Shown: piece after piece, positions 28,209 through 30,976 of the stretch
How positions within the stretch are numbered: the first letter of the stretch is position 1
Layout: each line of letters starts with the position of its first letter
Virus record (IMG/VR): IMGVR_UViG_3300008108_006643
Location: 1 to 33,724 of that record
DNA: 33,724 bases
DNA from: a virus
Reading direction: 5' to 3' (one strand)
The notes under the pieces: generated by a model
Database searches by the model: none
Seen by the model: the letters and a program-made list of their open reading frames with translations, nothing else
What the model was told of the DNA's origin: nothing
Made by a program: the position numbers and the translations under genes

Positions 28209-28454
28209 ATGAGCGAACAATTACTGACACCAAAAGAAGTCGTGACGCTGATCAAACAACAGTTTGGTGTTAGCGTAGACGTATCTACTGTTCGGAAGTG
28301 GTGTACCCGCGGTATTGGCGGGGCGAATTCAAAGTGTTGCCTGCCTCGCGTGCATGTCGGCGGGCGGGTATTTGTGAAGCTCAGTCGGCTGCAGAATTGG
28401 CTGCAGCGGAAACAACTCCGATCACTGTTGGATGGTTCCGAAACATCTCTGTGA
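28209..28454 (+). CDS. Small Xis-like helix-turn-helix protein
   Basis: 81 residues from ATG 28209; the frame is open upstream to a GTG at 28080. The sequence LLTPKEVVTLIKQQFG, then VSTVRKWCTRGIGG and a winged end (RVHVGGRVFVKLSRLQNWLQ) resembles excisionase-like winged helices. These include the small DUF1580-type proteins frequent in planctomycetes. Such proteins bind DNA as recombination directionality factors or as regulators. This is the only plus-strand gene. Its last 74 nt overlap the 3' end of the recombinase gene tail to tail, and it sits beside the scaffold promoter region. It may control late expression, recombination, or both. No Shine-Dalgarno is evident. Confidence 0.75.
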   Translation: MSEQLLTPKEVVTLIKQQFGVSVDVSTVRKWCTRGIGGANSKCCLPRVHVGGRVFVKLSRLQNWLQRKQLRSLLDGSETSL

Positions 28455-29886
28455 GGCTCAGAGATCGCTGCTCTCTCGGAAGCTGCTGGTGGATGTCCAT
28501 GAATTCTTTGAACCTTGCAGCGTTCCTCATGAAACGGTTCGGGTTCACGGGAGAAGCTACGTGCGTGTGACTATCAACTACGGCAGCAACGCGTTTGCAT
28601 AACGCGGTACCCTTCCGCCGCAAGGCTCGAGCGTACTCCGCCGCATTTGTGTACGGCATGGCGATCAGAGGGGGTAGGCCTTTCTCATGCAGCGCCTGAT
28701 TGCAAACGCACGATACGCACGCCGGCACGTTCCGGTATTGTTTGTACGTCAGGTACACTTTGAGCCACAAATCAGACATTTCCTGCGGCGTGAACACATC
28801 TTGAAACACGTAATGCTTCTGGCGGAGTGGGATCCTGTTCGACAACGCTCTCGGTAACCGTTGTTGCAACAGGTTCTCATTTGTCGCAAGAGCAATTGCT
28901 GCCGCATGCTTCGTGGCTCGGCTAGTTTCCTCGGACTCGAGCTGGGCGAATGCGGAGAGCATGCCCATCAGCAGCCTGCCAAACAGGTCGTCAGTGCGGA
29001 TCCCGCTTTCCGCGATCGCGAGAATGGCACCTTTGGCGTGAATGGCGTCGATTTGGTTGGCCGCGTCTTTCAGAGACCGAAACAGTCTGTCCGGCCTCAG
29101 AGCAACGACGACATCACCGGGTTGCAGGATCTGCAGCATTTGCCCACCAGCGGGCCGGTTCTGCAGAGGGGTTTTCCACGCGCTGACCCCTTCGTCCACA
29201 AACTCCAGGGCGTCTGGGTACTTCTGCCGCAAAATCTGTAGTTGAGTGCTTGCGGACTGATCGTCCGTGGACACTCTGGCATACAAAAACGTCCGCCCTT
29301 TGGCGACCGCTGCCGGGGTCGCAGCCATTATCCGAAGAGTTTCAACCGCAGAAAGTTGGGACGGAGGTACTGGCGGCCTGGTCGCTGGTCGGCGATCTTG
29401 TGGGGTCGCGGTTGCATCCTTCTTTCGCGCCTTTGCCTCCCGTATTCGAGCAGAAATAAGCTCGCTTTTGAGCTGAGCAACTGCCGCCATGCAGTACACC
29501 AGACACCGACCGTTGGCCGAGTTGAAACTCAGCGAAGGGTAGTCCACAAAAGTGACGTGGACTCCGGCCTCGACCCACCGTTCGAGGATGCTGCACGCAT
29601 CAGAGACACGGCGAAATAGCCGTGTCAGGCTCGTGACGACTACGGTGTCACCCGGTCGAACCGAGTTTGCCAGCAACAAAGCGCCGGGTCTTGTCTCAAA
29701 AGACTTTTTGTACGCGCTCCTGCCCCCGTCGATTATCACGCCGGGGCTGTCGCAATTCGAGGCCGAAGCCAAAACAAGGTTTGTCGATGTGCAGTAGTCC
29801 CGACAGGACTTCACCTGACCCTCGAGACTCTGCCCGTTCAGCATTTGCTCAGGCGTTGAGACGCGTGCGTAAATGTACGCCACCAT
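28381..29886 (-). CDS. Serine recombinase with two tandem resolvase-like domains
   Basis: 501 residues from ATG 29886, with AGGAG six bases upstream. Domain 1 (about 1-155) has YARVST with R8 and S10, and TRLFRR (R89, R92), but Thr88 stands where Asp is usual. Domain 2 (about 198-335) has YARVST with R204 and S206, and DRLFR (D266, R267, R270), all canonical. Both end in a similar helix (AQLKSELISAR and AQLESEETSRA). A Pro/Thr/Ala-rich linker joins them. The C-terminus (about 340-501) has CVSCVC but no recognisable large-serine-recombinase or Hin-like DNA-binding domain. A role in integration, inversion or resolution is likely. Two catalytic domains on one chain is unusual. The gene sits between a terminator-like hairpin and a convergent helix-turn-helix gene. 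Confidence 0.88.
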   Translation of the reverse strand: MVAYIYARVSTPEQMLNGQSLEGQVKSCRDYCTSTNLVLASASNCDSPGVIIDGGRSAYKKSFETRPGALLLANSVRPGDTVVVTSLTRLFRRVSDACSILERWVEAGVHVTFVDYPSLSFNSANGRCLVYCMAAVAQLKSELISARIREAKARKKDATATPQDRRPATRPPVPPSQLSAVETLRIMAATPAAVAKGRTFLYARVSTDDQSASTQLQILRQKYPDALEFVDEGVSAWKTPLQNRPAGGQMLQILQPGDVVVALRPDRLFRSLKDAANQIDAIHAKGAILAIAESGIRTDDLFGRLLMGMLSAFAQLESEETSRATKHAAAIALATNENLLQQRLPRALSNRIPLRQKHYVFQDVFTPQEMSDLWLKVYLTYKQYRNVPACVSCVCNQALHEKGLPPLIAMPYTNAAEYARALRRKGTALCKRVAAVVDSHTHVASPVNPNRFMRNAARFKEFMDIHQQLPREQRSLSLTEMFRNHPTVIGVVSAAANSAAD

Positions 29887-29897
29887 GTCGTGCTCCT

Positions 29898-29938
29898 AAA
29901 AAGATAGCCGGAGAGGGGTGTGCGGACCCCTCTCCGGC
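29898..29938 (-). terminator. Intrinsic terminator/attenuator before the recombinase gene
   Basis: A perfect 12-bp stem (GCCGGAGAGGGG against CCCCTCTCCGGC, 29907-29938, 8-nt loop) is followed in the minus direction by TATCTTTTT. The recombinase ribosome-binding site starts immediately after the T-tract. It therefore can end or attenuate transcription coming from the upstream operon. Confidence 0.8.
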
Positions 29939-29992
29939 CACCTGCCCCTCCGGTTAATGGATGGACAGCAAAGGAACAGGACCAACCGCTGC

Positions 29993-30015
29993 CAAAAGCA
30001 CCGCACATGCTTTTG
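29993..30015 (-). other. Hairpin with a loop complementary to the terminator loop
   Basis: An 8-bp stem (CAAAAGCA against TGCTTTTG) encloses the 7-nt loop TGTGCGG in minus-strand RNA. The terminator loop contains CCGCACA, its exact complement. The hairpin lies 9 nt downstream of the tRNA-like gene's 3' end. A TTTTG at 30020-30024 could compete for its 5' arm. Confidence 0.6.
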
Positions 30016-30024
30016 ACAACAAAA

Positions 30025-30113
30025 CACGCTGGGCAGGGCTCGAACCTGCACAAGTGGCCTCAACGCACCCACTACCTTGCGGCCACTTACTCTACCAATT
30101 GAGATACCAGCAT
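30025..30113 (-). tRNA. tRNA-like gene with an enlarged anticodon loop; identity undetermined
   Basis: 89 nt. The acceptor stem ATGCTGG pairs with CCAGCGT over 7 bp (one T-G wobble). The D-arm is CTC-AATTGGTA-GAG, with A14 and GG in place. The T-arm GCAGG-TTCGAGC-CCTGC is perfect, and the discriminator is G with no encoded CCA. The anticodon stem AGTGG/CCACT is intact but encloses 25 nt instead of 7. The last seven loop bases, GTTGAGG, would give anticodon TGA if an 18-nt insert (with a repeat of AGTGG) were removed. The gene starts 11 nt after the PEP-CTERM stop and is likely co-transcribed with it. Confidence 0.7.
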
Positions 30114-30124
30114 GCACCTGCGAC

Positions 30125-30976
30125 TCAGTTCGCCGGTTTCGACCGGAGCATCCTACTACGGGACAAACGAGACGTCAACCATTTTTGTGTAATTAGCACC
30201 GCAGCCACCACAAAAACCGCAGCCAACACCCCGGGTTCGGGCACTGAGTTGGTCTGGGGGACTTGCCCGGCATACAAGTCTCCGTTGGTCAGGACGATCC
30301 TGTCCAGTCGATAGTTTGGGTGGGCGCCTGAACCTTCGATCGGCATCGGATCAACCTCGTCGATTGAGATATACCCAACCCCTTGATAGACGCGGTCGAA
30401 CAGGCCTGTCGGTGCTCTGCCGACCCAGCTACGCCACAAAAAGGGGATGTAGATGGGGTTGTTTGCCGGCAGGTCTGTCAGACTGTCATAGACTCGCAGG
30501 AAATCGCTGTAGGTGTCCCCGGCGCCTACAGGAGTCCCGTACGGCAGCAACACCGCCTGATCCCAACCCCGAGTGTATGTGGTCTGCACCTGAATCTGCT
30601 GCTCCCCGTCTTCGGTGCCATACCTATCCGAGAAACTTCCGGTGCTTATGAACGCCATCCCACCACCCTCCGCAATCTGAGCGAAAGAGATCCACCCCAG
30701 CGGTCGCCCAAAACCGGAAAGATTCTGACCAATCTCTGCCGTGTACCAGCCCGTGTCTGGGTTTATGGTAACCCCGTACTCCTGAACCTCCACGATGAGG
30801 TCTCCTTTTACGGCGTCGCAACCTCCAAGAGCCAGCAATATCACCAGCAATATGACAAGGAGGTTTCCGATCTCTGGGTGGATTGACAACCACCCCGGAT
30901 CCCCGACCCAAATTTTACAGCACAGATGCCCATACAGCCTTTTCAAGTACTTGTCGCCGCCCCGTTGCTCGCTCAT
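30125..30976 (-). CDS. Phage-encoded PEP-CTERM protein with lipobox-like signal
   Basis: 283 residues from ATG 30976, overlapping the upstream stop as ATGA, with GGAGG about ten bases before it. After a 36-residue charged N-terminal extension comes a hydrophobic segment (NLLVILLVILLALGGC) ending at Cys53, compatible with a lipoprotein or ordinary signal peptide. The body is a beta-rich secreted domain without recognisable catalytic residues. The C-terminus has SVPEPG (VPEP at 245-248), a hydrophobic helix and an Arg/Lys-rich tail, the three-part PEP-CTERM sorting signal read by exosortases. The protein is probably exported and anchored or released at the host surface. It is the last coding gene of the early operon, followed by the tRNA-like gene. 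Its task is unknown; surface masking or superinfection exclusion are guesses. Confidence 0.8.
   Translation of the reverse strand: MSEQRGGDKYLKRLYGHLCCKIWVGDPGWLSIHPEIGNLLVILLVILLALGGCDAVKGDLIVEVQEYGVTINPDTGWYTAEIGQNLSGFGRPLGWISFAQIAEGGGMAFISTGSFSDRYGTEDGEQQIQVQTTYTRGWDQAVLLPYGTPVGAGDTYSDFLRVYDSLTDLPANNPIYIPFLWRSWVGRAPTGLFDRVYQGVGYISIDEVDPMPIEGSGAHPNYRLDRIVLTNGDLYAGQVPQTNSVPEPGVLAAVFVVAAVLITQKWLTSRLSRSRMLRSKPAN

Follow-up and report, generated by a model that had tools for sequence, protein, structure and literature searches.

The leader of a phage gene for a tandem-domain serine recombinase probably forms a conserved, strand-specific RNA structure with kissing loops, and it likely has a regulatory role. 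The window, i.e. the whole stretch of DNA analyzed here, is a complete virus record of 33,724 bases in which the long ORFs, by reading, lie mainly on the minus strand. Two hairpins, A and B, occupy an untranslated stretch 5′ of the 501-aa recombinase gene (28381–29886, minus strand), and all leader features described below are on this same strand. Hairpin A consists of a core (29993–30015) with an 8-bp stem, CAAAAGCA/TGCTTTTG, and an extended form (29988–30020) with a stem of 14 bp. Hairpin B (29907–29938) has a 13-bp stem, GCCGGAGAGGGGT/ACCCCTCTCCGGC, around CCGCAC and extends to 18 bp. Folded alone, A and B reach −19.9 and −36.4 kcal/mol, respectively, and in neither case did any of 200 shuffles equal the observed value. 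Sequence and folding therefore bear out both hairpins at the positions proposed in an earlier note on this DNA.

On the minus strand, the loop of hairpin A reads TGTGCGG and that of hairpin B TCCGCACA. The earlier note had described a perfect 7-nt match, and TGTGCGG and CCGCACA are indeed complementary, but the core capable of kissing is 6 bp because the last A of CCGCACA is predicted to be paired inside stem B. This core joins GUGCGG (30006–30001), the first kissing partner, to CCGCAC (29925–29920), the second. In the predicted window fold, the last G of GUGCGG lies in a terminal U-G pair of hairpin A with an unpaired probability of 0.02, so the sixth kissing pair would require opening of that weak pair; in L005, a diverged relative, all six loop-A bases are predicted to be open. 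Among 111 pairs of non-overlapping minus-strand hairpins with stems of at least 7 bp located within 150 nt, A/B is the only one with at least 6 complementary loop bases. Sixty dinucleotide-shuffled windows, with a mean of 64 pairs each, yielded two pairs with a 6-nt match and none with 7. Lowering the stem threshold to 6 bp added one more 6-nt pair per window strand, and it was weaker.

A scan with the recombinase sequence recovered six related records, L002–L007. L002–L004 are identical to the window in recombinase protein (100%) and in leader, while protein identity is 69% for L005 and 57% for L006 and L007, the latter two being identical to each other. There are accordingly only two independent leader sequences, that of the window lineage and that of L005, which shares 65.5% DNA identity with the window in the recombinase gene and 61.7% in the upstream gene. 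Hairpin A retains 8/8 core pairs in L005, with four double changes, of which one produces a U-G pair, and its outer stem differs while the loop is retained whole. Hairpin B retains 13/13 pairs, with three double changes. The loops predicted for L005 are exactly GUGCGG and CCGCAC, and the spacing between loop starts is 83 nt there as compared with 81 nt in the window. Shuffles reached the observed numbers of double changes in 38/500 cases for A and 73/500 for B, a weak control given two rows; hairpin A was aligned alone with hand-chosen ends, and MAFFT misplaces it or leaves it unaligned in longer alignments.

Both loops are identical in all five records that bear the element. Compensatory changes inside the loops, which the earlier note had suggested looking for, were not seen in the two lineages, and loop covariation is unproven because invariant loops leave nothing to compensate. 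The putative kissing contact is thus supported by retention, not by covariation. Stems that keep their pairing while the loops lose complementarity had been named in advance as the pattern that would speak against it; in L005, the single informative relative, the stems have changed yet remain paired, and the loops are still complementary. Since a diverged relative keeps the loop fit despite changed stems, the structure is probably a real RNA device.

Between the hairpins lies a 40-nt block (29941–29980; CCUGUUCCUUUG ... CGGAGGGGCAGG) that is identical to L005 at 38/40 positions. Folded alone, the block forms a 12-bp stem, C-prime, in both the window and L005. In the minimum-energy fold computed for the full window leader, by contrast, an anti-Shine-Dalgarno (anti-SD) segment, UGUUCCU (29972–29978), pairs with AGGAGCA in the Shine-Dalgarno (SD) region (29891–29897), which was assigned from sequence and lies 4 nt upstream of the ATG at 29886; when this pairing is made, an alternative hairpin C (29942–29968) forms. 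The computed energies are −77.9 kcal/mol for the SD-paired state with hairpin C vs. −69.6 kcal/mol for the C-prime state in the window, and −70.1 (SD-buried) vs. −67.6 kcal/mol in L005. In the free ensemble, predicted SD pairing per base is 0.86–1.0 in the window and 0.57–0.98 in L005. The minimum-energy fold of L005 buries the SD partly with other bases, in a pairing less certain than that of the window, and forcing the pairing analogous to the window's costs 1.6 kcal/mol. A conserved small ORF running through the block was considered and discarded; by eye, the two substitutions clearly favor no frame. A segment of the block, CCGGAGGGG (29941–29952), resembles the 5′ arm of hairpin B (29926–29938), and CGGAGGGG occurs in both in L005. 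As judged by this resemblance, it could compete for the 3′ arm of B as an anti-B fold.

Control points to translation, since a segment that can pair with the SD lies in the best-conserved stretch of the leader. Our tentative preference, held with a little less than even confidence, is for a cis-acting kissing-hairpin leader that most likely sets recombinase translation. In the model we infer, which takes in the kissing itself, translational control, the direction of its effect and any effector, hairpin A would lie near the 5′ end of the mRNA and hairpin B just before the ribosome-binding site, and their loops would pair over 6 bp. The intervening block would either fold on itself as C-prime or give UGUUCCU to the SD, with the remainder forming hairpin C. 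The fold predicted for the unkissed leader at rest conceals the SD, and the balance would shift once the loops kiss, perhaps with the help of a protein or ligand that recognizes the conserved block. As a plain duplex the kissing pairs are worth approximately −9.3 kcal/mol, close to the 8.3 kcal/mol that separates the two window folds. A rough rod-geometry estimate with hand-counted linker lengths indicates that the loops of A and B could meet unbent in 5/7 states. The two failing states are both in the window with hairpin A fully formed: contact would demand sharp bending in the SD-paired state, and in the C-prime state even a 90-degree bend is not enough. If the lower part of A is unpaired, and likewise in L005, contact is within range in the SD-paired and C-prime states alike. 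Rod geometry decides neither whether kissing is incompatible with SD pairing nor whether it is necessary for it.

The closest likeness is to the guanidine-II (mini-ykkC) riboswitch, in which, according to PMC9300104, two GC-rich hairpins flank a linker able to pair with the SD, and kissing of the hairpins is proposed to weaken linker-SD pairing and free the SD. With this model in mind, and since the SD is already hidden in the fold predicted without kissing, we lean toward the idea that kissing frees the SD rather than hides it. The phage leader shares a linker that can be paired with the SD, as predicted for UGUUCCU/AGGAGCA and with partly different bases in L005. It differs in its loops: guanidine-II, as described in PMC9300104, has ACGR loops joined by two G-C kissing pairs, whereas here the loops are GUGCGG and CCGCAC with a six-base match. 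The linker of the phage element also contains an additional, third hairpin and an extended conserved block, and the gene downstream encodes a phage recombinase. No Rfam family, guanidine-II included, reached its gathering score in the window using fast filters, which also missed a tRNA, and permissive filters applied to 29700–30400 with matches accepted up to E = 5 gave only the tRNA and three weak microRNA-family matches. Without ACGR loops and without an Rfam riboswitch match, the leader is not a member of guanidine-II.

Other RNAs offer more distant parallels. In TAR-TAR* and RNAI-RNAII kissing, six or seven loop bases are all paired between two hairpins; these contacts join two molecules, whereas here both hairpins are in one leader. 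In the IncI-alpha and IncL/M systems, a pseudoknot is coupled to leader-peptide translation and opposed by antisense RNA, and no conserved leader peptide was seen by eye in the phage leader. The phage leader is like those of IncI-alpha repZ (ColIb-P9) and IncL/M repA, where an RNA pseudoknot switches downstream translation (as titles cited in PMC10724649 indicate), in that a proposed RNA pairing would control translation of the next gene. Our searches of the open-licence literature, outside which most subscription papers lie, found nothing on kissing leaders, on phage integrases or recombinases controlled through their leaders, or on point for tandem serine recombinases.

The earlier note had called hairpin B a terminator and proposed that kissing, by holding it, could control access to the recombinase gene. 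What stands of this is that a decent U tract, TATCTTTTT, follows the very strong stem in the window, and that a terminator pattern scan listed the L005 copy with the tail TGTCGTTTAG. The resemblance is only loose: the same scan did not list the window copy, and the tail in L005 (TGTCGTTT) is interrupted, its UGUCGUUU being broken by G and C, so that terminator control of the recombinase is weakly supported. We regard as the foremost rival, though still rather unlikely, an attenuator in which hairpin B and its U-rich tail would end transcription before the gene and kissing with A would alter the efficiency of termination. The possible competition of CCGGAGGGG for the 3′ arm of B would suit such a device, but the best-conserved segment of the leader is the block and not the U tract.

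It is also improbable, in our estimate, that the hairpins are real and their loop match is a product of chance that was subsequently inherited, with A protecting the 5′ end and B keeping the SD open or stable. Hairpins are common at 5′ ends and before ribosome-binding sites, and the invariance of the loops, which show no covariation, is compatible with such an origin. A background level of matching can be seen in other leaders as well. When 34 of 80 loci from a wider scan were screened upstream of the recombinase, 2/34 (L160 and L161, which have the same hairpins as each other) had a 6-nt loop match; their stems are weaker, at 5 and 6 bp, and we treated them as background. Against a chance match are the outer stem of hairpin A, which differs in L005 around a loop that is kept whole, and the rarity with which a shuffled 5′ leader gives a hairpin fitting loop B over 6 nt (60/20,000 for L005; 105/20,000 for the window).

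We give a similarly low probability to the idea that the inverted repeats and the 40-bp block form an attachment or crossover site that the recombinase itself uses, located next to its gene. Phage integrases often have attP adjoining the gene, the block is a highly conserved, imperfect 40-bp inverted repeat, and a helix-turn-helix ORF adjoins the recombinase. Folding, however, is strand-dependent. The leader reaches −66.5 kcal/mol as mRNA vs. −49.0 kcal/mol for the opposite strand in the window and −61.7 vs. −54.2 kcal/mol in L005; the corresponding values for hairpin A alone are −18.4 vs. −8.6 and −14.5 vs. −8.7 kcal/mol. The weaker folding of the opposite strand argues for an mRNA structure and not a DNA site. 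Moreover, the deviations of the block from a perfect repeat, i.e. the four non-Watson-Crick pairs in the central 12-bp stem, are all U-G on the mRNA strand. A DNA repeat bound by protein should have no need of U-G pairs and would be expected to have conserved arms. Here the stems vary and the loops are constant, which is the opposite of what arm binding predicts, and the enzyme is encoded in L006 and L007, whose records show no match to the element. No second copy of the element was found within the 15 phage records, and the DNA-level recombinase or crossover site raised in the earlier note is left with little support. Finally, action in trans, whether by dimerization of two leaders, hairpin A of the first contacting hairpin B of the second, or through a separate RNA that uses one of the loops, has a precedent in the guanidine-II P1 hairpins, for which dimers were found instead of kissing within one wild-type molecule (PMC9300104), but seems very improbable given that cis kissing is sterically possible in 5/7 states by our rough estimate, that the 81–83-nt spacing is kept and that the 15 records searched contain no other copy.

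The distribution of the leader is narrower than that of the enzyme. A model built from the conserved block and hairpin B (R1) finds the element in 5/15 records (the window, L002–L004 and L005) and in 0/10 others, with the proviso that records may be fragments; R1 also matches hairpin B in reverse on the other strand of these five records, at 27.7–27.9 bits. Terminase identity to the window is 77–100% in all six tandem-recombinase relatives and 32–33% in eight further records (25–61 kb) with a single-domain recombinase, which were hand-picked from a wider recombinase scan. In L006 the start codon of the tandem recombinase is 33 nt past the preceding ORF, with no space for the leader; the L007 contig begins 19 nt 5′ of the gene, and its upstream region is not assessable. 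Absence of the element from the L006 and L007 records by R1, together with the lack of room in L006, indicates that it is not essential to the enzyme. One candidate copy at L006 2830–2912 (E 0.12 in a single R1 search of 52 loci), which the R1 search of the 15 records did not return, was regarded as chance. As a separate observation, a T14 run and G7 directly precede the recombinase in L006 (4968–5000), and G9 occupies the same place in L007 (1–19). The recombinase proteins downstream of the G runs are identical, and the difference may stem from faulty assembly or from slippage within the ribosome-binding site.

Scans of viral contigs with the recombinase, the upstream protein, the tRNA-like piece described below and the conserved block all returned the same six tandem-recombinase relatives or subsets of them. 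Two scans of bacterial genome contigs gave no relative, and no similar DNA was found in a phage collection. A loose-pattern scan matched at least 119 stretches, including L008, which is the known relative L002; among the loci examined there was no hairpin pair outside the known records, and L047 has a lone 6-bp hairpin with the loop CCGCAC. L136, the fifth match of one scan, was rejected as a relative, being AT-rich and without the hairpins. Inspection by eye of the upstream regions of twelve distant phages revealed no comparable leader.

The likely start of the transcript can be placed most readily in L005, where a promoter-like site, TTGACA, 17, TACTAT, ends at 2067, approximately 15 nt before hairpin A, suggesting that A lies near the 5′ end of the mRNA. 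The window has a poorer sigma-70-like candidate, TTGACG, 17 nt, TAGGAT (30150–30178, minus strand), upstream of the leader; it comes from a consensus scan that found 2 sites in 5 kb vs. 1.8 expected by chance. Between this site and hairpin A is a tRNA-like gene (30025–30113, minus strand) that scores 37.6 bits with the Rfam tRNA model (gathering 29). Its anticodon loop is approximately 25 nt as opposed to the usual 7, 18 more than in the model, and no CCA is encoded; neither ARAGORN nor the fast whole-window Rfam scan detected it. It is present in 4/15 records (the window and L002–L004), as the sole tRNA match in each, and was not found in L005. We therefore rejected it as part of the element, which does not need it. 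Its 3′ end is 4 nt before extended hairpin A, and from this arrangement removal of the tRNA would be expected to put hairpin A near a new 5′ end, as in L005.

With two catalytic domains in tandem, the recombinase is itself an unusual enzyme. The PF00239 (Resolvase) domain matches in two stretches (E 2.5e-53), and YARVS, which fits the YxRxS motif carried by the serine recombinase catalytic domain, begins at residues 6 and 202; the protein thus has both hallmarks of the serine recombinase superfamily. A PHROGs integrase family, phrog_95, matches over the catalytic part. Large serine integrases have one Resolvase domain at the N terminus, then Recombinase (PF07508) and zinc-ribbon domains. This layout was considered and rejected, as there are two Resolvase stretches and no further Pfam domain at E ≤ 0.001, nor any at 0.1 in two relatives. 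Seven of the 15 related records have two Resolvase stretches and the other 8 have one. Among the phage and plasmid records searched, none matches the recombinase over 80% of its length at a single location, and the predicted structure (mean pLDDT 59.2) was too poor for use. In the first Resolvase domain, all three distinct homologues have TRLFR at the position where the usual motif is DRLxR.

Two neighboring genes deserve mention. An 81-aa helix-turn-helix ORF (28209–28454, plus strand; HTH_33 barely above cut-off) is convergent with the recombinase gene, overlaps its 3′ end and could be an excision or directionality factor. The upstream gene (30125–30976, minus strand) is 60% identical in L005, and the C terminus of its product, with VPEP, a hydrophobic segment and basic residues, resembles a PEP-CTERM sorting signal; for a phage to carry a sorted protein would be unusual.

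Phage recombinases are usually described as being controlled by promoters, repressors and directionality factors. If true, a conserved kissing-loop leader brings RNA folding into the recombinase decision. A broader possibility, which we consider rather unlikely, is that the leader represents a new class of phage RNA switch in which kissing hairpins and a bistable, SD-hiding block would sense a host or phage signal and decide production of the double-headed recombinase, i.e. integration or excision. The signal might be a metabolite, a protein or the recombinase binding its own leader. Its small size puts the element within reach of a plasmid reporter test, and if the conserved block binds something, it would identify the signal read by these phages.
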